From Utricularia gibba (Eukaryota; Streptophyta; Magnoliopsida; Lamiales; Lentibulariaceae), in assembly GCA_002189035.1 (NCBI GenBank), contig CM007991.1, positions 4,836,001 to 4,900,000 of the forward strand: DNA of 64,000 nt, in the 5' to 3' direction. Positions 4,360 to 34,962 of the stretch are shown piece by piece. The notes under the pieces are model-generated. The model was not told the origin of the DNA, made no database searches, and worked only from the letters and a program-made list of their open reading frames with translations. A program made the translations under genes and the position numbers. Each line of letters begins with the position of its first letter. Position 1 is the stretch's first letter.

Positions 4360-5812
4360 ATGCAGCCAGGTCCACCAAGGGCTCGTCCAAGCCTGAGATC
4401 TTACAGAGAAGTTTTATATCCTTTGGACCAAGAGGTGGAACGAAACTTTCTTGCCAAAAAGAGAGAGTAGACGTCCTGTTCAACCACTAGAGACATCATG
4501 GCAACACATGTACTCGTTGGAGTACCAATAGTGCCCGAGACCCAGGGAGAACAACCTGACGGAAACTTTCCAGTACTAGTTCCCACTAACTATGGACCAT
4601 CAAGGAGGAAATCACTGCAAATCATTTAGACCGTCCCTTATGCATCATCTTCGATGGAGAAGAAGACTATGAGCTACGTCCTTACTTATTCCAGATGCTT
4701 CGAAAGTTTGCTGGAAGGGAAAATGACGACCCCAATCGTCATCTACGTGAGTTGCACATGGCTTGTGCATCCATGCGCCCCAAGGGAGCTACGGAGAATC
4801 AAGTCAAGCTTAGAGTATTTCCCTTCAGTCTTACCGAATGAGCTTTGGAGTGGCTCTATGGACTTCCCCCTTCATCTATCGCCACATGGAAGAAGATGGT
4901 TCAAAAGTTTTTGGATCGCTATGCACCACTAGGAAGAGCTTCTGCCAGAAGGAGAGCTTTAACAACCATGATGCAGAGTGAAGGAGAAAACTTGCAAGAG
5001 TATTATGATCGTTTCAACCGAATCTGCAACTTCTACCCTCAGCATGGACTCACTGAAGGCCAGATCTTACAGCACTTCTATGAAGGATTGACTCCTATGA
5101 TCCGAGGACAGATGGATGCCGCTTGTAATGGATCATTATTAGCGAACCGTCACAGTGTTGATGCCCACAGACTCATTGAGCAAATGACTGCTAATTCCTA
5201 TTCCACAGCCAATTGTTATGACAACTCCTATAGACCACCTGGTGGAAACATTGGAATAGCGAAAGCGGTCTATGGAGTGGACAACTCAGAAGTACTGGCT
5301 CAACTTGCAGCAATGAGCGACACATTGAAGTTTGGTCTTCAAGCCTTGCTTCAACAAAAGGAAGGATATCAAGGAACCTCAAGTTCTATGCCATCTCACT
5401 TTGACTCTGGATCAAGAATTCCTGAAATGCCGGTGGAAGAAGTCAATGCCTTTTATCAGAACCAAGGTGGGACATACAACTATGGAAATTATCAGATGCC
5501 TCGAAGAGACCATCCTGGTTTTTGCTGGAGACAGCCAGCACCCCTAGTCAAGCACCATCATTAGGGAACCCACCTGGTATTACTCATCAGACTATCACTG
5601 GACCACCTCAAACATTGCAGATAACTTGACCTCCAGAACAACACATGGTTCCATATCAACTGAATCACAGTTTAGAGGCCATGGTCAAATCTCTCGCTGA
5701 AAGCACCTCCAAGATGCATGTGGAGCAGAAGGACATGAAGGGCCAAATCACAAGTATACAAGGCCAAATTACTCAGCTTGCGCAGGCAATGAACCGCTTG
5801 GAAACAAAATGA
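4360..5812 (+). pseudogene. Gy1 gag, broken
   Basis: This encoded the capsid-type Gag polyprotein that packages retroelement RNA. The first ATG lies after a long pyrimidine-rich leader (about 4220-4358). A stop follows 36 codons later (4468) and at least two further frame changes occur before the best stretch, 4845-5564. That part reads through the retrotransposon gag core: a W-rich segment (WLYGLPPSSIATWKKM), then LQEYYDRFNRIC, then a QHFYEGLTP motif typical of plant gypsy gag. The 3' end returns to frame near 5640 and reads to a TGA at 5810 that interrupts an otherwise continuous frame into the protease region. The close relative in Gy3 (42567-43091, - strand) shares the RRALTTMMQSEGENLQEYYD segment. 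Confidence 0.8.
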
Positions 5813-9076: not shown

Positions 9077-11274
9077 GGGCGCGTTTGGTTGCAGGTTTTA
9101 GGTGGGTTACGGCGTGGGTTTAGTCATAAACCCACGTTTGGTTCGTGGGTTTCAGGTGGGTAAAAACAAACCCACTTGTTGACCATAAACCAGGTGGGAA
9201 CCCGTGGAGCTGGGTTTAGCTAAACCCAACTCGGCACTTCCAATTTTGCCCTCACGTGAACTACATTTGAATGCAGGTCTACAACCCAGAATTTGTTCGT
9301 GCTTTGCCAGTAGCGTCGCCTGTTCAAGCGTAAGAGGATGGTCTTTCGGTAAGTATGCTTTCTGCTCTTGGTGGGTTGGTCCACGGTAGCACCACGAGGG
9401 GCCGACTACGCCAGCACCGCATAGTGGATTTTTATCTGTGAATTTCCAATTTCAGAATCTGTGGTGCTGTTTCCGTGAACCAATTTTGCTCAATTTTTGT
9501 GACTGTTGAGGGGACATGGATTTTGAAACGGAGGGTCATGTTATCTTGAGTGCGGCAGCGGTAGTTTTGACTGAATACTTGGTGCAGATGAATGTGTTAG
9601 TGTTGGGTTTCTCGTATACATCGTATGTCTCAAAAGCAGCGGAATTTTAAAATTTTGAGAAACCCCCAACGCAGATCTTGGAATACAGTATACATCAGAC
9701 TAAGGGATGCTGAAATACCTTTCAGATGACTCTGTTGTTCACCAACCGCCAATAGGAGACAGCCTCTATGGTATCCACACGTGGAGCACTCCGTCGATAA
9801 CCTTCTCAAGGCTCTTGAATGCTGGTCGAATTCCTCAGGTGCTGGGTAGAGAAAAAACGCCTCCTTGTGGATTAGTCTCAGAGAGCACGAAAACCCATGG
9901 AGCAGATCTCAAGATCTAAATCTTTTGATAGATATATGGTAACATATCAAATCATATCTCCGTAAAGATCTTATCTTGTGGAGATATGTATATGTTCCAA
10001 ATCTTATCTATATATGATCTTTCATTTTGAGTTTAATCAATATTAATCTCAAAATAACTCTCAATGTAATTTATCCACTTTACCAATTACATCTCATGTA
10101 ATTGTGTCATTCTATTTTATATCGTTGAGTGACTCCACTATTGTGTGTGACCCTATAGGCTTCTTCAATCAAAGCCGTAATATTGGATTTATTAATTAAC
10201 TCTTAATTAATCAAATCCATCATTATCGATCATGAGTGATGTCTAGCAACACATCATGATCCCAAGATGTAAGAATAATCAGGTGAACTTATTGAGCCTT
10301 TCCATGACTAGCCACCATGCAATGAACAGCTTTCATCATACTTATATCTCATTCGATACTAGAACATGGGTGTGTGTCTTTCTGAGGTATGGAACTTATA
10401 ATTGCATTCAAGCACTAACACTCAATGACCTACTCAAACAATTCGAGTGTCATTACCCTAGGCCCAGGACTTACTGTTAGGCTTTGATGCAATTACTTGA
10501 GATATGATCTCATCGCTAACATGAGTGATGAATCCTTTATTGATCAATCAACTATCTCCAGCCTTAAGGAGTCACATCCCTACTCATCCATACTAGGCAA
10601 GCCATGGTTAGGCTCTCATTAGTAATGAGCGAAAATGCGAGATTAAGATCAAGATAACTTTGTTGACCTCAAGTCTAAGTTTAATTGCACGGCTGTCATA
10701 TTCGAGATCTTGCTATTGACACTTGGTTAGCTTCCCATAGTAGCATCTCGAAGATGAGTCATCCAGTGAATCGATTCTCTAATTGACACCCACACATAGG
10801 TTCTAGTAATCTCATTACATCAATTGTGAGAACCATTGCCTAAACAATTTAGGGAACTCAATGTGTGCCAGCTTATCCGTATTTGTGATATCCTCATTTC
10901 AAAAATACTCTAGCTAGGGAGTTTTTAACTTGATCATGAGTGCTTGAAGAATCTCACATTATGATCTCATCATAATTTCTATAGCACATAGATCAACTAG
11001 AGGATTTTATCAATGATATAAATTTGATCACAATTCAAAGTAAATATCATAAGATAAGATTTACCAATGAGTTGATTGTCTCTAGAACACATACACTAAC
11101 AGTTAGTATACTTACATTGGAGGAAATACCGTAGGGGACATAGGCTAAGACGCAAGTATTCACTTACACACAAGATTCCTAGAGAAGTTGAGTTTATTAG
11201 TAGGTTGGTGAGTGATGTGAACAGCGTATCCATTGAGAATTTGAGAATCAGCCGAGATGCATTGGGTGTTTTAT
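9077..11274 (+). mobile_element. Truncated PIF/Harbinger copy split by a copia solo LTR
   Basis: The left terminal repeat GGGCGCGTTTGGTTGC starts at 9077, after the bases TGA. The copy follows the long copy (11413 onward) closely through the subterminal AAACCCAC/GGGTTT-rich region and the first transposase exon (ATG at 9516). It is interrupted at 9600 by a copia LTR, resumes at 11107 and loses homology near 11274. The matching uninterrupted sequence at about 11955-11985 in the long copy is the empty site. No right terminal repeat is present. Bases 11275-11412 have no recognised content. Confidence 0.8.
9601..11101 (-). repeat. Copia solo LTR (copy A)
   Basis: It is 1501 bp, in reverse orientation relative to the LTRs at 50577 and 56794. 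It begins TGTTGGGTTTCTC and ends ATACACTAACA. The target duplication GTTAG is perfect (9596-9600 and 11102-11106). No internal copia sequence remains, so this is a solo LTR produced by LTR-LTR recombination. Short open frames inside it (for example 9707-9919, 10256-10480) recur in all copies of the LTR and are not genes. Confidence 0.93.
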
Positions 11275-11884
11275 GCATTGGTTATTGTTGTTGTTAATGC
11301 AAAGAACTGTATGTGTGCTATATCCAAGATTCATGCATTTTTAAGGAATTTATCGATGGTATGTGTTCCACATAAGAAAAAGGTATTTGACCTACATTCA
11401 ATCAAAATCTAAGGGCACATTTGGTTGCTGGGTTTAGGTGGGTTGCGGCGTGGGTTTAGTCATAAACCCACGTTTGGTTTGTGGGTTTCAGGTGGGTAAA
11501 AATAAACCCACCTGTTGACCATAAACCAGGCAGGAACCCGTGGAGCTGGGTTTCGCTAAACCCAGGGGGGGGGGGGGTCGGTTTAGCTAAACCCTTCTCG
11601 GCACTTCCACTTTTGCCCTCGTGTGAACTGCATTTGAACGCAAGTCTACAACCCAGAATTCGTTCGTGCTTTTACAGTGGCGTCGCCTGTTCGAGCGCAA
11701 GAGGGTGGGTCTTTCGGTAACTATGCTTTCTGTTCTTGGTGGGTTGGTCCACGATAGCACCGCGAGGGGCCAACCACGGCAGCACCGCGCTTGTGGATTT
11801 TTATCTGTGAATTTCCAATTTCAGAATCTGTGGTGCTGTTTCAGTGAACCTATTTTGCTCAATTTTGGTGACTGTTGAAGGGAC

Positions 11885-13166
11885 ATGGATTTTTTCACGG
11901 AGGGTCATGTCATCTTGAGTGCGGCAGCGGCAATTTTGACTGAATACTTGGTGCAGATGAATGTGTTAGTATACTTACATTCAAGGAAATACCGTAGGGG
12001 ATATAGGCTGAGACGCAAGTATTCACTTACACACAAGATTCCTAGACAAGTTGAGTTTATTAGTAGGTTGGTGAGTGATGTGAACAACGCATCAATTGAG
12101 AATTTGAGAATCAGCCGAGATGCGTTGGGTGTTTTATGTAGTCTATTAGAAAATCGTTCTAATATTAGGTTTGCATGTTTTTAGGAATATTAGGTCATCA
12201 TAAAAAAATGCGGGTGCAGAAGCATACCTACGGGAGGAGCACCGAGACTGTGTCTGTGAAAATGCGGTGCTCTGCCTCCATGAGGTGCTGTTAGAGACCC
12301 CGGTAGTCGCTACAAAATGTGCATCCGAAGGAAAGTTTAAACACTTCCAGGTTGACACATCTTTCATGCTTATTTTTACGAATGTGTATCCTAAAATTGA
12401 TTATGCATTTGTAGGGTTGTGTTGGAGCCCTAGATCGCACATACATCGGTATAGAAATCGAAAGGGGGTGATATCCACCAACGTGTTGGGTGTATGTGAT
12501 GAACAAATGAAATTTATATATGTGCTTGCCGGGTGGGAGGGGTCTGCTGCAGATAGTCGGGTGCTCAACGATGCACTATCACGATCCAACGGTTTCCGTG
12601 TACGCGCAGGTATTTAACTTGTTTAGCCCTTGCGCATGTGATTCCAATGATTTTTTGCACCTGGTATACGTGATGACACAGGAACATATTATCTATGTGA
12701 CAATGGATACGCCAATAGAGAGGGCTTTTTGGCACCATACCGTGGAGTCCGTTACCACTTGAAGGAGTGGGGCCAGGGAAATGGAGCACCCCAGAATGCG
12801 AAGGAGTTATTCAACATGCGGCATGCATCAGCCAGAAATGTTATTGAACGAGCTTGGGGCATGATGAAGATGCGGTGGGGTATACTACGGACGGCTAGCT
12901 ACTATTCTGTAGACACACAGACCCGCATTGTATTGACATGTGCTTTACTTCATAACCACATTCGAAAGGAGATGGTGGTCGATCCCCTGGAGGATCAAGT
13001 CCCATTGGACTTCCAAGATGAAGCTGGGGACACGAGCTATCCAGAAGATGTCACGACATCTACCGGAGGGAATCAAGCATGGAATAGCTGGCGTGATCAG
13101 AAGCCGAGGGGATGTACACAGAGTGGCTGGCATCCCGCAGGCGCCACTAGTGTAACACTGTTTTAG
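11885..13166 (+). pseudogene. Harbinger DDE transposase (HarbA), damaged
   Basis: This enzyme cuts and joins transposon ends. Exon 1 (ATG at 11885) encodes a basic N-terminal part (RKYRRGYRLRRKYSLTHK). A middle section of the protein is missing or replaced around 12180-12290. The first catalytic Asp is seen in GCVGALDRTYI (about 12420-12450), where the usual Gly after Asp is Arg. After a frame change come RYRNRKGVISTNVLGVC and EGSAADSRVL with the second Asp. An intron with GT-AG ends (12608-12681) leads to YLCDNGYANREGFLAPYRG and ASARNVIERAWG with the catalytic Glu. The C-terminal exon is intact to 13166. The D-D-E triad is visible but the gene needs at least one frame repair, so it is probably inactive. 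Confidence 0.85.
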
Positions 13167-14020
13167 ACATTGTCATGGTAGTGGTTATCCTTAATTCCCG
13201 TATCGAACCTACCGTGTCGTTTGCACTCCAACTTGAACTTGAAATTGCAAAGTATTTGGTAGTTGATGCACAAATTGTTGGCATTGTACCATAGTATCGT
13301 GTGTTACCATGGTAACACACAGTGGATCATTGGAGCCAACACCGCGATCCTCATTTGAGGTGCTATAGAGGCTTGTACGACACCAACGTTGTGGGCAGCA
13401 CCATGTGTTTCATTGTATCCAGTGCTCATAAAAATTAAAGATGAAATACGTGTGAAGCTGATGCATAGTAGTGAGGGTATTTGGTATTTGACCGAACACC
13501 GCAAACCGTAATATGCGGTGCTTCTGTACGCTTGGGCTATGCCGCGTTCAGTGCTGCACCGAATGTTTCCTCGTATCTGGTGCTGTCAAAATTTAGAAGT
13601 ATATGTGTATGTAGCTGGTACATGTTAGCATGGGTGATTGGTAGTACAATAATACTCCATTTGACGCAACACCGCGCTCCGTAATATGCTGTGTTTCTAA
13701 ATGCCTGAGGTACGCTATGCATTCCACAGCACCGCGAAAACATAATCCGCTGTTCTGAGTTCCAAAAACAAAATGCCATAAAATATTGCAGTTATCCAGC
13801 ATTAAATGAAACACCAACGTTAAATGAAACATAAAATGCGCATATGATGATTGGTGACTAGTTTTGTATGGGTATGCCCACTCACCGCTGCAGAATGGCC
13901 AACAACGTTGACATTGTCAGAGAATGTGGGACACCCATAAGGTAATCATAAACAATTACTTCGGATATTCACACGTATTGTTGAACAGTACTCATGTTTT
14001 TTTTTTGTTTGCGTTGTAGG
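13167..14020 (+). other. HarbA spacer with repeated CACCGC/GCGGTG hairpins
   Basis: No gene is clear here, though a short candidate exon starts at an ATG at 13895 (reading MANNVDIVREC) with a GT-like donor near 13940. The spacer repeatedly shows an arrangement of ACACCGC, about ten bases, then TAATATGCGGTGCTTC or a close variant (near 13496-13525, 13668-13695 and 13730-13760). Each can fold into a small hairpin. The same words recur between the FCP1-like gene and ORF1. Confidence 0.5.
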
Positions 14021-15271
14021 CATAGAGGTATTGCCAAAACGTGCGGCAAGGAGGTTTGTGAATTTATTCTCTTGCAGAACAAAGTCCTTGGTGGACGTCT
14101 TGCCCCCCTTCATCAATGCCCTTAGGACACATCATTTGTGGTGCGGAACCCCTCGACACCGTAGACAACGTGGGAGTACAAATGATGATCTTGAGGAGGT
14201 GACCCATGAAGAGGATGAAGATGTGCAGCTAGAAGTCGGGGGCAACACGGAGGGGCCAACACCGATTTCGACACACGACGACGGGTGCGGTGCTGCCACT
14301 ACACAGTATATCCAAATGGACAGACTGTATGCAGAGAATCTTGATCTCTATGGTCGGCTTGCATGATATGAAGCAAGGTGGCCATACGGTGGACCATCGA
14401 GTGATAACACGGCCCACCACGGAAGTTGCTTATATTTGACGTGAATGGCGTACTTGCGGACATTATGTATCCTCGCGAAGTCAGATGGGGAGCGCTGAAG
14501 CTGGATGCCGTCATTTACAGGCGAAACAGTAATGCAATGTCATTGATATGCATTTAATATTTGGTGCATGTGTCAGTACTATTTCTTGTGCTTGTAGTGT
14601 ATCTTCGACCAAGTGCACGTGAGTTGATACAGTTTTGCATGGAACACTTTGACGTCACCATCTGGTCTTCAAGAGGGCGGTAAGACTGACCACCTAGCAG
14701 ACAAGGGGGTCCGCATTCCTGCTGACATTTTTTTTTCTGACGACATGTGGCAGTGAACAATTGCATGATGTGATTCAGTGGTTACTAGAGACTGCAGCAG
14801 CCAGCAAGCTCGTCTTCCAATGGGATGGATCCAGGTGTGTGGACACCGGCTATCCGGTGCACGACAACAGGAATAACACAGTTAAGCTTAAGCTTTTGAA
14901 TCATGTATGGGGCGCCAACCAAGAGTTCAAGGGCAAATATCACCGTCTTAATATGCTTCTCATCAATGATGCGCCGTACAAATCACTACACAATCCGGTG
15001 AGTTTCTGGTTGTGCTCATTCTCCACCATCTTGCATCCTATTTCACTTGTTTAGTTTCATTCGACACCTCGAAAATGCCATATTTCCAACCACCTTCAAG
15101 TACACCGCGGTCAATGATTGTTCGCTTGTTCGAGGGGGAGATATTAGGACGTTCCTGGAAGCTCTGATTGACCAAATGGATGTACCCACGCACGTCGATC
15201 GCCATCGGGTAGGTCAACTTCCAATAGATGAGGAACACCCATTGTGGAAGCAATACAAGACTCTTGTGTAA
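14021..15271 (+). pseudogene. FCP1-type (HAD) phosphatase-like gene inside HarbA
   Basis: Four exons can be read. Exon a, 14021-14528, holds an acidic linker (EEVTHEEDEDVQLEV), then RKLLIFDVNGVLADI, the HAD motif I (Asp codon 14438-14440; the second Asp of DxD is Asn). Exon b, 14598-14679, reads YLRPSARELIQFCMEHFDV then TIWSSRG (motif II). Exon c, 14754-14997, reads KLVFQWDGSRCVDTGYPV and LLINDAPYKSLHNP (FCP1-type late motif with ND for DD). Exon d, about 15052-15271, reads AIFPTTFKY and ends HPLWKQYKTLV. The first three introns have GT and AG ends in phase; the last acceptor is one base out of frame. A TGA (about 14365) and a one-base frameshift near 14405 break exon a. The fold is that of C-terminal-domain phosphatases, which dephosphorylate proteins. 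With altered acid residues, activity is uncertain. It lies wholly between the Harbinger ends, downstream of and parallel to the transposase. Confidence 0.82.
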
Positions 15272-15345
15272 TCGATGGTGCACCTTTGAAATTGCATGGA
15301 TCTTGCGTGAACTATCCTATGTTGACCTTGTTAGTTTTTTATCGA

Positions 15346-15566
15346 CCACTTATCGTAATGGCACCGGATGTTCAGCATCCGGTGCCGTCTCTGGATTTGA
15401 AACCTTGTGTGTAGACGTGGTGCTTCGTAATATGCAACACCAACGCGGTGCTAGTCCACTTATCGCGATACCACCGGATGTTATAACATCCGTTGCGTTC
15501 ACTGGATATGCTTCTTTGTGTCTAGACGTGGTGCTTCGTAATATGCAGCACCAACGCGGTGCTAGT
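15346..15566 (+). repeat. Two tandem 110-bp repeats with perfect palindromes
   Basis: Units at 15346-15455 and 15456-15566 share CCACTTATCG, CACCGGATG, GACGTGGTGCTTCGTAATATG and CAACGCGGTGCTAGT. Unit 1 contains a perfect hairpin GCACCGGATG-TTCAG-CATCCGGTGC (15361-15385). Unit 2 has the 16-base palindrome GGATGTTATAACATCC. A further CACCGC hairpin follows at about 15643-15675. The block sits between the 3' ends of the FCP1-like gene and ORF1. Confidence 0.85.
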
Positions 15567-15797
15567 CCATCACTTCTCGATAGCACCGCTATGAATGGGG
15601 CGGTAGTTGCAGTACAATGTTTGCGGAAAAGTGATCAAGAAGGAAACACCGCGCTCGTTCATACGCGGTTCTTCTAGCTCATGAAGTCAGAACACTGTCT
15701 ACCCTTTGCAATGCTCATGCCAGTTGAAAGGATGAATAGAAGATGAAATACATCTAGTCCATGAGTCTAACATAAGGCGGAGCACCACACAACAGAT

Positions 15798-16845
15798 TTA
15801 AGATCTACGTTCTGATGCTAAACCACGCACAATAAGCTCTCTTTCACAGTCACTGGAGGCAAGGAAGTAGCGCAACCTCGCAGGGTTGGAACTAATTGTC
15901 TCTGCTATGGTAAAACGTTCAATGGCAGTTAATTTCACCGACATACCTCTAATGAACTCCCTGCCTGACGCTGATTATCCACCAACTCCCGCGCTTGCTG
16001 CACCACTGTTAATCCCAAGTGACGTAGCTCTTCGCATGTGCGCACATTAAGCTCCTTCATTTCTTTGATGAACTGCACATCATCGTCGATTCCCCTCGGT
16101 CCCTGCCGCTTCGTCCATTCCGCTGCGACGAGTCGGTGCTGTTGTGTGACTCGGAGTCCCTACTAGGCGTGACGTTCACACCCTCCATAGTGCAACCAAT
16201 TGGGTCACAAGGTGTGTCAGTATACGAGAAGTTCATATCGTGTCCAGTGCTATCCGGGTCCAGAGGGCAATCCGAAGATACTTCCAGATTCTCCCCAACA
16301 TCTTTTATGAATTTCCTCTTCCTGGTCGCATGAACATAGCTCATCGTTTTTTCTCCTGTAGCTCGATCCTTCCCAAAGATTTCCTGCCACTCCATGTAAT
16401 ACGGCCACGCTTTGTGTCTTAGGGTGCGCAGTCTGGGTGCATGCTAACATAATAACACGGTCAGCACCGAATATAACAACGCGACAACAAGGCATACGTA
16501 CCGGATCAATCTCCTTCCAAACCTCATCGTCTGTGTCTACGGTGTAGGTCAGCTCACTGAAACCGGTGCCCGACCTAGATAAAAAATCTACAAGGAGGTA
16601 GTAGTCTTTTTTCTAGGTATGCACCTTGCTAGATATATGCGGGTGTGCGCGAATGTCGGTTCTAGGGCGAAGTTTCAAGAACTCTGTCTCTAACGCTCGG
16701 TGATACCCACCCTAAAACCATTCTCAATTTTCCAGCCTTCTTTCACTATCGGTTTCAAAGCGTGCAACAAGTCTTTCTCCTCATCTGGCTTCCAGGCGCG
16801 TTTCGTTCTCTTGTGAGAGTGTTCCACCACGATTGGGCTGTGCAT
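15798..16845 (-). pseudogene. Harbinger ORF1: Myb/SANT-like DNA-binding protein (HarbA)
   Basis: In PIF/Harbinger elements the ORF1 protein is a DNA-binding partner needed with the transposase. On the - strand an ATG at 16845 begins MHSPIVVEH; the Myb_DNA-bind_3-like domain follows (RAWKPDEEKDLLHALKPIV, then, after a one-base frameshift near 16705, LETEFLKLRPRTDIRAHPH and KKDYYLLVDFLSRSGTGF). An exon boundary with a GT donor lies at 16501, and the next exon starts after an AG near 16450 with PRLRTLRHKAWPYYMEW, then IFGKDRATG, a hallmark of this domain family. A Ser/Asp-rich linker and a helical C-terminal region (FIKEMKELNVRTCEELRHLG) end at a stop at 15798. One in-frame stop and two frameshifts are visible. 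It is transcribed toward the FCP1-like gene. Confidence 0.8.
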
Positions 16846-17169
16846 ACCTGCAATCTGTGCTGGAGGAAAGAAAACAGCAAGAAAAAAGCACCTACACCGA
16901 GCACTTACCACAAGTAAACCGTAAAATTCACTCAAAATTCAACGGATTTCGAACGACAAACTCTCCGCAACTAAGGGAGTATACAAACTGGACATAACCC
17001 ATGGCTGTTCACTCTCAATTACTGGTGAAATCGAGAGTTCATTTAAATCCAAATAATGTAAACCATCAACCAAACACGATTCCTAAATAAACCAACAAAA
17101 CCGGGTTTCCTAAACCCAAATAAACTAAACCTGGGTTTAGTCCAAACCCAGCAACCAAACATGCCCTGA

Positions 17170-19190: not shown

Positions 19191-19403
19191 TTCCCGAGTC
19201 ATATTGGGCTACATGTGTGTGTTGGTTTTATCATGGGTTGAGTATTAACATGTTGCAGCAATGGTTGGAGCGGACGTGCCAACAGTGAAATGCAGGAGAA
19301 GTGATGATAATATTAAGACCAAAAGATACTGGAAACCTAATGAAGAATGCTTTCTGATCCACGCTCTTAAGGATATCAATTAAATTGGGTGAAAAGCAGA
19401 GAA

Positions 19404-20000
19404 TGCATAAAATAGTTATTTTCTAAATGATTATTATGCATTATTACGTGTTAATTTAGAATTAAGTCATCCAATTAAGAGTAATATTAATAACTATTTT
19501 ATTTTATTAGAAAAATCTAATTATTGTCATTTATATATATTTTTGAATAGTTTTTCATGTGCTTTCACCCAAATTGGCAAGAATCAATCTTGGAGTGTTG
19601 CAACAGACAAGATACTGATATTTCATGATTGATACGTGACTTGGATCCATTGTAGGCAGAAGGGTGACATTGTTCAAGGCTCATGGCTTACGACATGCCA
19701 AAGTCTGCAATAATAATTAAAACTAGTTATTCGGAAAAGACCAATGACAATTGAGGCGAGAAAAATAAAAGAGGAAATGGAATCTCTTTATTAAGAATTG
19801 CATCTCTTAGTTAATATTCATTACTTACGTTGCATTTTGTATTCTAGTATTTCGAAACCCCTTTTTCAAATGCATGATAATTTGTGATAGGTTAACATAA
19901 AACACTTTTCACAAAACTCAATTTCTATTGACACTCGTATTATGCTTTATTTGTTTTCTAAGTTTTTCATAACTAAAATTTGTTGAGAAAATGACACGCA
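19404..20000 (+). repeat. Degenerate Athila-like LTR
   Basis: The left part (TTATTATGCATTATTACGTG, then AATTTAGAATTAAG) resembles the LTR front at 27606. The right end, GAGAAAATGACACGCA, matches the Gy1 LTR end (GGAAATGACACGCATCA). The middle shares the CAACAGACAAGA and TGATACGTGACTTGG region. No primer site follows, so it is a solo or truncated LTR. Confidence 0.6.
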
Positions 20001-20039
20001 ATACCCAGTTTAAACATCAGATGCACGCCAAATATGCAA

Positions 20040-20860
20040 TCAAAGATTCATAACTAGAAAAAAAATTACGACACCCTATTTGACTTTCTCAAAGAGTCAA
20101 GTAATAGCTTTAATAACTCTACAAACATGGTAGACCCTAGTGAGGATTTATAGGCGGAGTTCAAATAGGTATTGTTATTCTAATGTGTATGAGTAGATCG
20201 TTCATACAAGATTGTTTAACTGTACAATGAGAAGGTGTAGAACTTGTTGGGGTTTAAGTGCTAGCCCTACTAGCCACATTGGTGCATTATCATTGGGATA
20301 GAACTACTTGAGATTTTGCGGAGTGTGTCCCTAATGCTGCTAATGCAACACACCAAGTTGATAACTCTATGGTTGGATTGCAACAACCAATGCATCTTCT
20401 TGAGTACCCTGAAGTGGAGGCCAACTCGAATAAAAATGGTGACCAGTGATTGCATGATGCATCCTTTGTATATGAAGAGTATCCCTCATCAGGGGAACTT
20501 TTGGAAATCACACAAGTAATTTCTCTACACCGATCTATGGTGACAAGCCTAAGAAGAAAAGGAGGCATGGTCTAGAACTTAATACCTTGATGGAGGAGTT
20601 GAAGGAAATGAGTAACCGAACAAACGATGACATCACACAACTAGGAGAAACTCTTACTACTGAAACCAATGACCTATGGGAGCATAGAAATGCAGCTGTT
20701 GACATCATTAGAGGAATTCCTTTGCAATTAACTACATGCAGTGTTTAGGAATAACTGAGGTCATTTTTAATAAGCCCATAAAACTACAACTTTTTTTGGA
20801 CAGCAAAAGTGTAGAATGCGAGCTTATGGTGGATAGGATTGCAAAAGGCCTATAATATGT
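20040..20860 (+). pseudogene. Myb/SANT-like ORF1 remnant (HarbB)
   Basis: Fragments in shifting frames recall the HarbA ORF1: an HYHWDRTT segment where HarbA has IFGKDRATG, then a KPKKKRRHGLELNTLMEEL basic-to-helical transition, and a terminal helical part (TEVIFNKPIKLQLFLDS) like the C-terminal tail common to Myb/SANT-like proteins. A stop lies near 20746 and the frame ends about 20860. The N-terminal DNA-binding helices are not clearly visible. The position and opposite direction to the FCP1-like gene match HarbA. Confidence 0.55.
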
Positions 20861-21039
20861 GTTACAACTTCAATTTGACTTTGTGTTTTTCTTTTTTTTA
20901 ATCATATCCACCTATGATATCCATGTATCGTGACGATCATGTTGCTTTCATTGATAATATTACGTTTTGTATTTTTGGTATGAGTAGCATATCTTTGCTT
21001 TTAATTTGCATAACCATACACCTTTATCAAGTGGTGTAA

Positions 21040-21602
21040 TGTGTAGAAGGCACAGTGGCAAGCATCGTCCCTTCTAGGCACCAGAAATATGCAGAGCATT
21101 GCCTGGAAGAGGTGCACCAATTTAGACTGTGTGCATATCACCTGACCTTACCTCCCACATGCATTTTGGAATATTGACTGCACTACATTGCCCTTTAGAG
21201 GCATGTGTCATAGTCTTCTCAACATTGAAAATATGTGGATGCGATGCCTGTAAGAGGTGCACCAATTGAGACCATATGCATAGAACCTAGCCCTATCTCC
21301 CATATGCACTTTGGAATTCACTGCACTACGTTGTCCTTGAAATGTATTTGTCCTAGTCCTCAAGGCACCGGAATTATATAGATTAGGTGTCTAGAAGAGG
21401 TGCACCAACCTACACCATGTGCATAGCAACTGGCCCTGCCTCCCACCTACACTCTTGAGTATTGACCATTGCCCATTAGAGGCATGTGTCCTACTCTTCT
21501 AGGCACCCAAAATATGCAGATGTGATGCCTGGAAGAGGTGCACCAACTAAGACCATGTGTGTAGCACCTGGCCTTGCTTCCCACATGCACTCCGGAATAT
21601 TG
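21040..21602. repeat. Four tandem ~140-bp repeats
   Basis: Each unit contains GGAAGAGGTGCACCAA, then GACCATGTGCATAGCACCTG, CCTCCCACATGCACT, a variable spacer, GGCATGTGTCCTAGTC and AATATGCAGATG. The GGTGCACCAA word is at 21111, 21256, 21399 and 21538, so the period is 145, 143 and 139 bases. Units are diverged by substitutions and small gaps. The array lies between the FCP1-like gene and ORF1 of HarbB, the same place as the 110-bp pair in HarbA. Confidence 0.88.
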
Positions 21603-21681
21603 TTTGGTTTCCATGATTGAAATAGAGTGAATAAAATAGTAGTGTTTAGAAACCCAAACCACTATTACATGTTATGAATGT

Positions 21682-22640
21682 TTATGCAACCTTTTTGCAA
21701 TAATTCCATAAAGGGTGTTCAATATCCAGCGGAGGCTGTCCAATTCGTGCATGCTTCACAAAGTTGGGTACATCATCTACTTCTAGTAGACCTTGAAGGA
21801 ATGTGTGTATTTCTTCACACTCACCTAGCGTAGCCTCCCTTACATCCATGTACTAGTATGGCATCAAGAAGACAACGTTTTCATGTTGTCTCACAAGAGA
21901 CGTATATAAGCATGAGCACCTAACATATATATTAGAACATATGAATGCAACTTACTTAACTGAGATTCTAATGAACTTGAATGAAGAGTTGTCATATATA
22001 TTAGAACATGAACTATTTGGATCAAGCCCGAACACTCACTTGATTATCTCATGTAGTTGTCGCTATAGAAAAGTGCACATGTTAGAGAAATAGATAGTAG
22101 TGCAGGAACTATTGTTTTCATAGAGTGGGACTTATGTGCCCCTCGAAGACCATATGCTAACATCGAAGTTCATTAGACATCATTGGATGAACTCACATGC
22201 GAAGGGCCTGAGGAAGACTCTATACGCAGGAAAAAACTAGAAGACCACTTGAACATCACACAATCATGTGGCGATCTAAACATGTCTTACTATTTTGCTC
22301 TTATATGACAGCGTCTGGTTTCTGATGCAGCCTTTTGTACTTGGCATTAAAGAAAATGTCTGCAAGCATTCCATTGACATCAAACACAAGCAGCTTGTGC
22401 ACATGTCACTTGATCGAAGAAGTGAGGCCAATGTATGCCCACCTCCTTTCATACCAATCAAGCCTTGCACATAGTTGGGCATTCTCTTCCAAAATTCCAT
22501 CCACATCCACACCAGCAGTTAGTTGCAGATATTCTTCCTCCATGTTGCTCTCAGCATCCCTCTGTGGGTTAGAAATAAATGTTAGTGACATCTCTTCCTC
22601 AATGATCACATTGTCAGGTTTTGGGCACTCACCTATCACT
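21682..22640 (-). pseudogene. FCP1-type phosphatase-like gene (HarbB)
   Basis: Reading leftward: ENAQLCARLDWYERRWAYIG (HarbA has ENLDLYGRLA-YEARWPYGG), then after a stop HKLLVFDVNGMLADIFF with HAD motif I, ending near 22283. After an intron, FLRPFACEFIQ and, past a stop, CLMNFDVSIWSSRG (motif II). The third exon is reduced to a scrap (FYSDNYMR); the INDAPYK region is not found. The final exon reads ECEEIHTFLQGLLEVDDV then ARIGQPPLDIEHPLWNY and stops at 21682. The exon order and boundaries agree with HarbA. At least three stops and a lost exon make it a clear pseudogene. Motif I has the same Asn as in HarbA, so the substitution predates the split. Confidence 0.75.
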
Positions 22641-23519
22641 CAGCCCTAACCGCACAAGAAGTGTCGAGTACTAACGATGTCCATCACAGGGGGTACTATG
22701 TCGCTCAAAGGCTTGCTCTTTTAACTAAACATAGTCAACTAGGCATCCTCCCCTTACGTCAATAGTCTATAAAATCCTACAACATGATTAACCAAATAAC
22801 ATAAATCAAAATATGCTAGCCATGCAAGTGTACTAGATCACATGTTACCCTTTGTCTTTCCGATTGTCTTGGAGAAGCCGAGAGTAGTTGAAATTCGTAG
22901 GTCGTTAGGAAAACACACCCAAATGAAGCTTGTCTACCAAGGATCATATCCACGTAGAATAGAATTGACAACTGCAATACCTGGCTTGCCCTTCAACGAG
23001 AAATGTTTAGTTTTCCAGTTTTCAATACACACACTTACAGCAAAAATATTGGTATGACTATTGTAATTTTTTACTCCATGCACACACTCATAAAAGCTAG
23101 CACATGAGCTATTGAGTGAGGAGTTAGGTGAGGCAATGGGACCTCCAAATATGTCAGCAACTTGCACACAAAGGGTGGTGGTGGCAATCGAAGTCCACAT
23201 CGAAAGTGTTTAGTGGACACAAAAAAATCCTGTTACTCCAACTCTAAACGTAACCTCACCATCAATGGTCTCATCCCTTGTGCCATAGATATTAGGTCTC
23301 TAGAATCATAAACTGAATTTGTTGTTTCTTGGAAGTAAGCATTTCTTCGGATAGACAAATTACAAGAAGCAAAAAATGAAGCAGACGATGCAGCTAAGGC
23401 AGAGACAATATGCACTGGTTTGTAGTGTGCAACGATGAATGCATGGTGAAAGGATGTGGTGATTGGGTTTGAAGGTTTTTTTTGAGGCCAAGATATGCAA
23501 GGCTGTCTAGATCAGTCCG
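22641..23519 (-). other. HarbB interval upstream of the FCP1-like gene
   Basis: By position this should hold the first exon(s) and intron of the FCP1-like gene. An 88-codon open frame at 22934-23200 (- strand) exists but resembles nothing I know. No other feature is supported. Confidence 0.35.
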
Positions 23520-24588
23520 TGATGTGTGTTATTTCCACAACAAATTTGAAGGATTTTTAAAATTTGTAAAACACAAAATGCATAGTATGGGTATCAAATA
23601 TAGGGAGTTGTTTTTCCAATCAAGGGTAAAGTAAATGTAAAATTTGTAAAGTAAAGAGTGCGAGAAATGTAAATGATGAAGCTTGAGTAAGGGGATTGTA
23701 GACAAACAACAAATAGAACGTAAGCAATAAACCTTAAATAAAGACAATGCTCTTGGGATTGCAATCTTGCACAGCTACGTTCCTTGCATCTCCACTTGGT
23801 TATAGGAGTAAACAATTTTCTACCTTCTCTTACACTCTCTTGCATAGAGTCAAGTAAATAGTATGATGTTGCTCCCCCTTGGACGAACGGGAAGATACGA
23901 GGTCTCGCCTTCATACCCACATGGTCAAATTGTGAACATGTATCTCCTAATCTAGCCACTCACAATGAATCCCATAAGCAAGCTCTTATAAACATAAATT
24001 GAGAATGTCATCATATCCAATGCTAGAAAAATAGCAATTATGGTAAAATATTCGTGAAATGATAACAAAGATAAAATGAGTTTCTACTTCTGTTTGTTAC
24101 TATTCACAGTTGGGAATAGTTACGCTGAACTGTGTTCTTGAGCTTGTTCTTCACATTGAGGCTTTTCCTCAAGAAGATTCTTCTTCTTCACCCCTTTCGT
24201 TTGTTATGGAGCTTCTTCGTGTGTGTTCTTTTCTGTTGAAGCTCTCTTTTCAATTCTCTCATTCCAAAGATATCTCCCCTTCTTTACTCTAATGTGTTGT
24301 TTCTGACACTAGTACTATTACTGGCCTAAACCTACAAAACTGTAAACCTTTGGATATTGTGGCTCCTTTAGCTTGATCCATACATCTTTTAGTTTGGTTT
24401 TTATGCTACTCCTCCTACTTAACTTAATTAAGCATTAGTAAAAAAAGATAGACTAAATCAAAGGAATTTGTGCACTTTCCAACATAAACACAAAATAAAA
24501 ATAAACATCACATAAAATATGAAAAACCGCACAAACCTAACCTAAACCACAACAAAACATCATAATTTTGTATTATAAAATTTTAACA
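23520..24588 (-). repeat. Athila-like gypsy LTR inserted in HarbB
   Basis: It is 1069 bp on the - strand. It begins, in element sense, TGTTAAAATTTTATAAT at 24588 and ends AAATAACACACATCA at 23520. The last part matches the Gy1 LTR (lightly diverged: CTTGGACGAACG, TATAACC-AGTGG, AAGCTTCATCATTTACATTT). The front matches 38345-38830, including GTGAA-AGTAGCAAACAGAA. Five-base flanks do not match (GTCCG and AAATA), so it may not be a simple solo LTR. Confidence 0.8.
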
Positions 24589-25480
24589 AAATATGTGCAT
24601 CAATACCTTATACCCTTCTTCGTGTGATATCTCTCCATTGCGTGAACATTGTCTCAACCATTGAATCTCGCCACTGTGTCCATTTCTTAAGTTTGCTATG
24701 GAGGAAATATGTTGATCATCTTCATAGTCCCATGAATTCGAATTCCAATACTCTTCCAGGATGACTTCTTCACATGGATTGGTTAGCACTTCTTGCTAGA
24801 TAAAATTGTGAAGTAGGGCACATGTGAGTATGATGCAAGCCTATGTTTTAATGGGGTAAAAATTGTAACTTCATAAAATATCCCACCTCATTTTCATTAG
24901 ACTCCATGCCACCTCAATAACGTTCTTCGCAGAAGCATGCTGTAGTTTGAAATATTCCTTTGCATTTTGTGGAGCATTGGACCTGGCACCCCACTCTTTC
25001 AGATGGTACTGAACATCCATATAGGGTGCTAGAAATCCCTGTGGGTTTGTTTATCCATTAGCATACAAGTAATAGTGCCATAGGAAAAATGAAATACATG
25101 AAAGTCACTTGAGACAATGAACTTCCACACATGTTAAGGACTTACCTTTGCATATAAGAAATGCCCTCTGCCGACAAACTACATCTCCTAGCAGCCTACT
25201 ATCAGTGGTTGATCCCTCTCAACCAAAACACAAATAGAAGAACATCAGCATATCATCACACACTCCTAACACGTTAGTGGACTCTATTCCTTTGCGATTC
25301 CTCCACTTTGGTTTATCCTAGTTCTTGACTTTCACCTAGAAATATGAACCATCCAATATGGCCAAGAAACTCTGAAAACTAACTAAGAAAATTACCTCAT
25401 GTAAAATACACATCGCATATCCACAACTACAATGTAACGTCTACATGCATATTTCGAAAATCTGAAGCTAGATTTAGGAT
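24589..25480 (-). pseudogene. Harbinger DDE transposase (HarbB), broken
   Basis: On the - strand the following appear in order: KWRNRKGIESTNVLG, EGSTTDSRLL (second catalytic Asp), NPQGFLAPYMDVQYHLKEWG, NAPQNAKEYFKLQHASAKNV followed by IEVAWSLMKMRW (the catalytic Glu), and the tail LTNPCEEVILEEYW. Each has a direct counterpart in HarbA (RYRNRKGVISTNVLG, EGSAADSRVL, FLAPYRGVRYHLKEWG, NVIERAWGMMKMRW, VDPLEDQVPLDF). Stops and frameshifts are scattered through it. The C-terminal end is next to the inserted gypsy LTR. Confidence 0.8.
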
Positions 25481-26590
25481 CAGAAACATCGATTGGCACA
25501 GGTTTCTTAAGTAAATGTCATGTGATGACAGCATCAAGGAGAATACCACATTGAAATATTTATACACTGTCCAACTGCTTCGCATGAATTCAAATTTTTG
25601 ATGCCTTCTTTCCTATGATGACCTGAAATATCCAAAAACAATACACCGTGCTCTGGAACATTGACATACCTTGAAGTAGTTAATCTACTATTACTTTAGA
25701 GAACATAGCATAAGTTGTTGAAGATATCTACACTTAAGCGTAAGTTTTGAGACAAGCATTTCTTTAGTCAGATAAAAGTGCAGTCGAATGCTCTATTTCC
25801 CAAGGTATTTTTTTGTAGTACAAGAACCAAATACTCCTATCAGTTGGTGTAGAGCAGTAATGCAATATTATCACAATAGTAATTCGCATAATACATAGGT
25901 GCTTACCAACATAATGCGTCGCAACAAGTGCGGCCAAAATAATTTCATTGGAAATGCATCGCAACAAGTGCGGCCAAAATAATTTCATTGGAAATGCATC
26001 GCAACAAGGTCAGCCAAAATAATTTCATTGGAAATGATTGCAACAGCCTCAATAAGCAACGTACAATCTATTGAAATTTTTGCAAAAAAAAAAAAAAAAC
26101 CGCCCAACCCCATCATATACAAAAGAGACAATAGGAACCCTCAGTGTAATTTGAAGCATGGGTTTTATTAGAATATCAAAATTCACTTACTCACCGTCTA
26201 CCTACAGAAACTCAACTGATATGTGATGAAGAGGATGAAAAAAATACACATATATTTGCTGCAGATTTGTTTATGGAGGAAAGGTATTATTGTCAATGGT
26301 ATATTAGCTATCGATGGGTTTCAGAAAACCCATCTCATACATGAGTTTGCGAAACTAGCAGCGACATGTTTGGAATGAGATAACATAAACCCATGTATTT
26401 CACTAAATCACTATAATTAATGCATATAACAACTTTTACCAAAGGGATTAGGGGGTTAAACCCACCTAAAAAATTTGGCCTAAGTGCTTTTATGTAAAGG
26501 ATGGTATGAGTTTGGCTTTAAATAAACCCACATTTATATGATTAAAAAAACCCATGTAGACCCAAGTTTATTTAAACCTAGGTGATTTTT
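25481..26590 (-). other. HarbB 5' region with 40-bp tandem repeats and subterminal words
   Basis: The transposase N-terminal exon should lie here but cannot be read. Three tandem copies of a 40-bp unit (GCAACAAGTGCGGCCAAAAT plus AATTTCATTGGAAATGCATC) occur at about 25913-26040. A poly-A run is near 26084. From about 26440 to 26590, GGTTAAACCCACCTAAA, AATAAACCCACATT and AAACCCATGTAGACCC resemble the reverse complement of the HarbA subterminal region, marking the outer end. Confidence 0.6.
25913..26040. repeat. Three tandem 40-bp repeats
   Basis: Units start at 25921, 25961 and 26001 with almost no divergence between the first two; a partial unit precedes. The low divergence implies recent expansion compared with the surrounding decayed element. 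Confidence 0.9.
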
Positions 26591-33663: not shown

Positions 33664-34962
33664 GATGAATCAATCATCATTGTCAACAAGCCACTCGTCA
33701 TCCTCCATAAAAGAAGATAGTGATGAGGAATTATCTTAGTTGCAGATGTCAATCCTTGCTAGTGGAAGGGAATTATTGTGGGTAACTACCATCAACAATA
33801 TCTGGTACGACAACCTGTCCATGATTGTTCAATATCGGGTTGGGCATTATTATTGTCAATGTTAAATGGGGCAGACATCAGAGCATACCAAGACTTACGC
33901 ATGAAGCCTTCAGTCTTTCTTAAATTTTGCAGCGTGTTAGTTGATGAGTACGGCTTGAAAAAGTAACGTCATGTTACTGTAGAAGAAGAAGTTGCTATAA
34001 TTTTTAAGATTGTTGGAACTCGAATGGTGAATCGAAGTTTACAGGAGTTTTTTCAATGTGGTGCAGACACTATTAGCACTTCACTACATAATGTTTTAAA
34101 AGCTTGTTGCCGAATGGCAGATACATGGATTAAGCCTACGAGGGATTATACACAGGTATCACCTTATATTAGAAACATAACTCAATATTATCCTTATTTT
34201 GAGGGCTGTGTTGGTGCAAACGATGGTACCCATATAAAAGCTTGTGTGCCTGCGAATGAAAGAGTTCGTTACATTGGACGAAAAGGTGTTCCTACACAAA
34301 ATATTCTAGCAGCATGTTATTTCAATTTATCATTCACTTTTGTTGCTGCTGGGTGTGAAGGTACTTGGAATGATAGAAGAATGTTGATGGAGTGTTTGCG
34401 AAATGTCGACGACAAATTTCCCAAACCGCTTCATGTTTGTTTGATTGTCTAATTTATTTTGTCTATAGATACATTTATCAATTATTTCTTTTTTAAATTT
34501 GAATATATGCAGGGAAGTATTATTTGGTTGACGCTGGCTTTGCCAATACTAATGGTTATATGGCTCCATATCCCCGTACACGATATCACCTCCCTGAATG
34601 GAAACGTGGCAAGGCATAGCTATAATAGACTAGAAGAGTTATTCAACCATAGGCATTCAGCATTACGTTCTATTATTGAAAGAGTATTCACAATTTGGAA
34701 AAAGCATTTTTGTATGGTCAATGACATGCCATGATATTTGAAATTATATCATCAAGTTCGATTAGTTGTAGAAACTGTGGCTATTCATAATTTTCTTCGC
34801 CAAGTTAGTGCCGAAGATGATGGATCTGAGTTGAGTGTCTATGAAGATCTTAATCCATTGCTTGCGGGTGATGATGATGATCCTATTGAAGACAATGCTA
34901 CTGAATTAGAAGAATCTGGTTCAATGATGACAATTAGAGGCAACATTCATGATCAACTCTAG
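33664..34962 (+). pseudogene. PIF/Harbinger transposase of a different lineage (HarbC)
   Basis: The reading begins MMNQSSLSTSHSSSSIKEDS, then after a stop and frame change RAYQDLRMKPSVFLKFCSVL. The long exon 34024-34452 is open: LQEFFQCGADTISTSLHNVL (helix-turn-helix-like), EGCVGANDGTHIKACVP with the first catalytic Asp, RYIGRKGVPTQNILAAC, and CEGTWNDRRML with the second Asp. A probable intron ends at about 34511 (TATGCAG). The next exon reads KYYLVDAGFANTNGYMAPYP with one frame change, then HRHSALRSIIERVFTIWKK with the catalytic Glu, a stop near 34735 and the tail VETVAIHNFLRQVSAED. It differs from HarbA and HarbB (NDGTHI against ALDRTYI, IIERVFTIWKK against VIERAWGMMKM) and carries no FCP1-like gene or ORF1 nearby. 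Confidence 0.87.

Follow-up and report, generated by a model that had tools for sequence, protein, structure and literature searches.

We found that a gene joining a Transposase_28 domain to an FCP1/HAD-like domain (T28-HAD) sits inside Harbinger transposons of Utricularia gibba that are bounded by terminal inverted repeats (TIRs) and target duplications, that its HAD part was under purifying selection in one of these families (family A), and that its kin lie next to transposases of the hAT and MULE types in fixed orientations, a description in which we have high confidence. T28-HAD appears to be an accessory gene that three superfamilies of DNA transposons have exchanged.

A Harbinger Element Carries a Third, Spliced Gene

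The window analyzed here is a stretch of 64,000 nucleotides (C3:4836001-4900000), and the genome searched was the 100-Mb assembly of 516 contigs. A PIF/Harbinger element occupies window positions 11413-17166 and encodes a DDE transposase, an FCP1/HAD-like gene, and a convergent Myb ORF1. It is bounded by the terminal repeats GGGCACATTTGGTTGCTGGGTTTAG / GGGCATGTTTGGTTGCTGGGTTTGG at 11413 and 17166. The features of the element are as follows.

11410-11412: left half of the 3-bp target duplication, TAA (right half, 17167-17169, TGA)
11413-11437, plus strand: left TIR
11885-12184, plus strand: transposase, N-terminal coding remnant
12204-12614, plus strand: transposase, first DDE_Tnp_4 exon
12651-13163, plus strand: transposase, second DDE_Tnp_4 exon
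13359-13733: noncoding stretch with GGTGC[CT]/GCACC motifs
13857-13937, plus strand: T28-HAD exon 1, remaining 3' end (other Transposase_28 exon sequence deleted)
14019-14527, plus strand: T28-HAD exon 2, linker and HAD motif I (DVNGVLAD), with a premature TGA at 14364-14366
14600-14677, plus strand: T28-HAD exon 3, HAD motif II (IWSSRG)
14755-14997, plus strand: T28-HAD exon 4, HAD motifs III and IV
15071-15271, plus strand: T28-HAD exon 5 (acceptor AG is AC at 15066-15067)
15346-15582: 111-bp noncoding tandem repeat rich in GGTGC[CT]/GCACC
16057-16443, minus strand: Myb ORF1, third exon
16463-16612, minus strand: Myb ORF1, second exon
16690-16938, minus strand: Myb/SANT-like ORF1, first exon (PF12776)
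17142-17166, minus strand: right TIR

The transposase contains stops and belongs to DDE_Tnp_4 (PF13359, over the cut-off in both exons; second exon, E = 1e-13), and the spliced reading of ORF1 is Myb/SANT-like (PF12776, E = 8.6e-6, over the cut-off). The third gene encodes an NLI/FCP1-like domain (PF03031, NIF; E = 1.8e-9). An earlier note on this DNA had proposed a Harbinger element with a third, spliced FCP1/HAD-like gene, and the TIRs and the three domain matches bear this out. A 174-bp copy (about 95% identical) of the transposase stretch 11965-12138 is present at window 11102-11275, 137 bp outside the left terminal repeat.

The flanks of the window copy (TAA/TGA) agree at 2 of 3 bp. All 11 other copies that have both ends carry identical 3-bp flanks (TTA in five, TAA in two, and TAG, ATA, TAT, and TCA in one each); these 11 copies show the short TIRs and 3-bp target duplication of PIF/Harbinger. 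When the genome was searched with the element as DNA, 136 matches at about 30 loci were obtained, about 18 of them spanning the FCP1-like part, so that a chance arrangement can be dismissed. Neither outcome that the earlier note named as refuting its reading was seen in this genome. The terminal repeats pair across the phosphatase-like gene in these 11 other copies, and therefore the third gene belongs to the element. Likewise, its homologues in this genome were mainly found outside single-copy host loci; most are in repeats and many adjoin transposases. A host single-copy locus with a chance neighbor was ruled out by the copies with TIRs and target duplications. Two copies (C1:5486859-5489232 and C413:2496530-2498765) have like internal deletions (element 1-750, from 1384, and 5480-5754), a common pattern as expected of a non-autonomous derivative that has moved.

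T28-HAD Is a Two-Domain Gene, Broken in the Window Copy

Full-length relatives of the third gene encode about 490-510 residues, with an N-terminal Transposase_28 domain (T28, PF04195), a linker, and the FCP1/HAD domain. The copy at L031 comprises five exons and 486 residues and has both Transposase_28 and NIF domains in one spliced reading, its NIF score being 20.4 bits against a cut-off of 21.8. Exon 1 matches Transposase_28 over the cut-off in family A (E = 1e-8), in a second Harbinger family, B (1e-9), and in L031 and family C (2e-7). The window copy itself lacks Transposase_28, since most of exon 1 is deleted near 13808-13838. Hence the size of about 240 residues given earlier was an underestimate; the relatives are larger and fused to Transposase_28.

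The premature TGA of the window copy is CGA in relatives, and its exon 4 reads LLINDAPYK where most copies read LLIDDAPYK. With exon 1 largely lost, the TGA in exon 2, and the exon 5 acceptor broken, the window T28-HAD copy is a pseudogene, and the element as a whole is a dead copy. The earlier statement that in-phase GT-AG introns are kept is correct for the family and fails for the window copy at the exon 5 acceptor. The introns lie at common positions in families A, B, C, and L031, which rules out capture as a processed cDNA, as the note had argued.

Purifying Selection Acted on the HAD Part in Family A

Differences found in at least two copies (shared, older) were compared with those found in one copy (singleton, mostly post-insertion) by their ratio of nonsynonymous to synonymous rates, omega. 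In this test, which ignores tree kinship and leaves methylation-driven C-to-T changes in the rates, omega for HAD in family A was 0.53 for shared and 1.18 for singleton differences (Fisher p = 4e-5). The corresponding values were 0.62 and 1.02 for the transposase, and 0.55 and 1.48 for Myb. For T28, constraint in family A was not significant (0.62 shared, 0.82 singleton; p = 0.31). Noncoding stretches read in three frames gave shared omega of 0.82-1.22. We conclude that HAD was under purifying selection, like the transposase and Myb, while family A moved.

Related Genes Accompany Harbinger, hAT, and MULE Transposases

Harbinger family B has the same order as family A, namely transposase, T28-HAD, and convergent Myb; the two are about 60% identical in the transposase and 35-45% in HAD. 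The following counts of Harbinger, hAT, and MULE loci are lower bounds from the best candidates scored. Among the matches listed, 30 of the 70 loci matching both T28 and HAD exons have a Harbinger transposase within 7 kb, and in 27 cases it lies 1.2-3.2 kb upstream on the same strand. Conversely, 72 of 117 Harbinger transposase copies have no HAD match within 8 kb among the matches listed, which we attribute to decay, deletion, or families lacking the gene. A second three-gene element, diverged and decayed, is present at window 19315-25814 (transposase 25814-24634, minus strand; T28-HAD 23275-21685, minus strand; Myb 19315-19407, plus strand); a search for its terminal repeats found none. In the window block 20001-26000, GGTGCAC is the top over-represented heptamer.

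Family C T28-HAD genes have a hAT transposase (PF05699, E = 1.9e-21) upstream. In L031 (group D), T28-HAD converges on a hAT gene that is nearly complete; this transposase on the other strand rules out L031 as a domesticated solo gene. Family E genes are divergent from a MULE transposase, which at the C414 locus matches PF10551 (E = 1.6e-12); one T28-HAD gene of this family has, about 2 kb downstream, what we take to be an acyl-CoA-dehydrogenase-like host gene (L047:8118-9600). With 92 hAT loci at 45% identity or more and a limit of 4 kb, T28 was present at 25 of 92 among the matches listed, compared with a mean of 2.6 and a maximum of 8 for shuffled positions; of these listed pairs, 20 have hAT upstream on the same strand and 5 are convergent. 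For MULE, T28 is within 7 kb at 16 of 43 loci among the matches listed. Thirteen of these are divergent, while shuffling gave a mean of 1.7 in any orientation and a maximum of 8. The orientation of T28-HAD to the transposase is fixed and superfamily-specific. A scan of the L031 and L037-L042 stretches for hAT TIRs with 8-bp target duplications gave no convincing pair enclosing both genes, and because element ends were not found, co-mobility at hAT and MULE loci rests on position statistics. The earlier note had presented the third gene as a Harbinger feature; it is indeed inside the element, but the hAT and MULE loci rule out a Harbinger-only gene. At one further locus (C3:5128700-5138500, comprising L042 and L040), parts of an LTR retroelement (LTR, primer-site, and polypurine-like stretches) flank hAT, T28-HAD, and another T28 ORF with a coiled coil. 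Given this mixed history, the locus was left out of boundary calls.

Could T28-HAD be a separate mobile unit that repeatedly inserts in or beside other transposons? L039 carries T28-HAD without an upstream transposase, and among the matches listed 24 of 70 two-domain loci lack both DDE and hAT within 7 kb, with MULE accounting for 8 of the 24. Against these cases, each superfamily keeps its own distance and orientation, and the slot between transposase and Myb is the same in families A and B; we regard a separate unit as very improbable.

T28-HAD May Have Passed between Superfamilies

HAD, T28, and joint trees place Harbinger family B with the hAT-linked L031 (support 78, 81, and 98) and family A apart from both, in alignments where groups D and E are represented by one sequence each and stops in uncorrected matches were entered as X. 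Some rows of alignments A1 and A2 are composites typed from several copies; in row B of A2, one residue that is R in L032 stands as G, and Q takes the place of a stop. Because the transposases of A and B are related, yet T28-HAD of family B groups with L031, the trees suggest that T28-HAD may have passed between transposon superfamilies.

The host genes L043-L046 lack T28 and show motifs of the types DLNGLLADI (read in L045), WSSR, and LLLDDSPYKALLNP. We infer that the HAD part probably derives from them. The HAD domain would then have come from a host FCP1-like gene of the DLNG type and been joined to a Transposase_28 domain, and the fusion would have been handed from one transposon superfamily to another.

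A captured host gene could instead be a passenger that hitchhikes without benefit: plant MULEs often carry pieces of host genes (PMC6446971), and most T28-HAD copies are broken. A passenger would, however, hardly show purifying selection on shared substitutions, recurrent linkage to three superfamilies, or a frame and motifs kept across families at 43-61% HAD identity, and we give this explanation a slim chance.

The HAD Domain Departs from the Phosphatase Motif

HAD motif I is DxN, not DxD, reading D-V-N-G in element copies and D-L-N-G in host gene L045; Asn replaces the second Asp in the related host gene as well as in those element families that were examined. The domain has NIF/FCP1 homology and lacks the FCP1/SCP motif DxDx(T/V). 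It keeps the nucleophile Asp and, in the later motifs, Ser, Lys, and Asp. In HAD phosphatases, the second Asp of motif I is the general acid. Because this residue is Asn, normal catalysis appears doubtful and phosphoprotein binding plausible. Judged by its residues, ordinary phosphatase activity of the HAD part is doubtful, and we do not class T28-HAD as an active phosphatase. A change in host phosphorylation, put forward in the earlier note, presumes catalysis and is doubtful for the same reason.

When the PDB was searched with the T28 profile, no solved structure matched. The best solved relative of the HAD part is UBLCP1 (E = 1e-6), and this nearness to CTD-phosphatase-like proteins (UBLCP1, NIF) fits a helper that promotes transposition or expression by way of the transposase, Pol II, or repair, with no part in countering silencing. 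Selection on HAD as strong as that on transposase and Myb also favors a helper. Direct contact with the transposase is unlikely, given three superfamilies with unrelated transposases, and a helper would leave the motif arrays described below without explanation. Overall we consider a helper role a serious but rather doubtful alternative.

GGTGC Arrays Suggest a Target within the Element

GGTGC[CT] abounds in the noncoding DNA of the elements, with 28 occurrences in the window element compared with 5.5 expected, 16 in L031 (3.8 expected), 14 in family C (L037; 2.3 expected), and 11-22 in family B (about 5 expected). The excess, a post hoc and uneven one with z up to 8.7, is seen in A, B, C, and D elements and is weak in L036, L039, and L033; family E favors other words (CACCGTA and CACTGTA). 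In L031 and C, the motifs form arrays between genes. One neighboring window block has 13 GGTGC[CT] motifs compared with 3.9 expected, three of them inside the element.

The arrays might instead be bound by the transposase or by Myb ORF1, or have arisen as repeats by chance, with no relation to T28-HAD. Indeed, Harbinger ORF1 has a Myb/SANT-type DNA-binding domain, the motifs lie near all genes, and the remaining window background is about twofold above the GGTGC expectation. Yet C and D hAT elements carry arrays with no Myb gene in the DNA seen, and, in one case, a DDE_Tnp_4-like transposase gene (window 33850-34881, plus strand) with no T28-HAD or Myb nearby lies in a block without GGTGC excess. 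Such an origin of the arrays is improbable in our judgment.

By analogy with VANC, which binds arrays of short motifs within the element that encodes it and brings about methylation loss (Hosaka et al., 2017, PMC5735166), the arrays suggest that T28-HAD may bind its own element and counter silencing. We assume that T28 binds DNA. The Transposase_28 part would bind GGTGC-type arrays in noncoding DNA and thereby bring the protein to its own element. The HAD part would probably bind a phosphorylated host protein that belongs to the machinery of transcription or silencing, rather than act as a normal phosphatase, and the element's genes would stay expressed in the manner of VANC. As a whole, such counter-silencing across superfamilies, in which T28 reads GGTGC arrays and an altered HAD blocks a host silencing or transcription factor, is a tentative proposal that we consider unlikely in its full form.

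Discussion

T28-HAD as a maintained, shared accessory gene is supported; a phosphatase role is not. That it is a flowering-plant transposon accessory gene working by the mechanism proposed above is possible, if somewhat short of probable. Canonical PIF/Harbinger elements have a transposase and ORF1, both needed for mobilization, and no third gene (PMC2836001). Like T28-HAD, VANC of Arabidopsis VANDAL/MULE elements is an accessory gene beside a transposase, and its elements have short noncoding motifs, often in tandem repeats, that differ between families (PMC5735166). VANC is a different protein, however; its anti-silencing activity and binding have been demonstrated, whereas those of T28-HAD are proposed by analogy, and unlike VANC, T28-HAD spans three superfamilies. 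TET/JBP dioxygenase genes of fungal DNA transposons were likewise exchanged among many lineages, hAT and Harbinger included, but they are fungal, encode an enzyme of known chemistry, and have no T28 or HAD (PMC12730594). Antisense TRP28 (PF04195) ORFs of Retand LTR-retrotransposons are, according to the accessible text of PMC11963269 and PMC7264820, accessory ORFs that share the N-terminal domain; their setting is a retrotransposon, and that text does not mention an FCP1/HAD domain. The PMD/PP7 module of Arabidopsis (MAIN, MAIL1, PP7L, and MAIL3) also combines transposon-derived and phosphatase-family domains, in cis or trans, and acts on silencing, but its domains differ by name and it consists of host proteins that promote silencing (PMC7156037). 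In the literature searched, which excluded most subscription journals and Repbase, no earlier description of T28-HAD was found.

Few transposon genes besides the transposase are known to be common to unrelated superfamilies. Fungal TET/JBP, which is of this kind, and VANC, a comparable accessory gene, have given pointers to how elements resist host silencing, and T28-HAD would be their counterpart in flowering plants, from which alone Transposase_28 has been reported (PMC11963269). T28-HAD ties Transposase_28 to an FCP1-like host family, and would give this domain, whose role that paper describes as unknown, a concrete, testable job.
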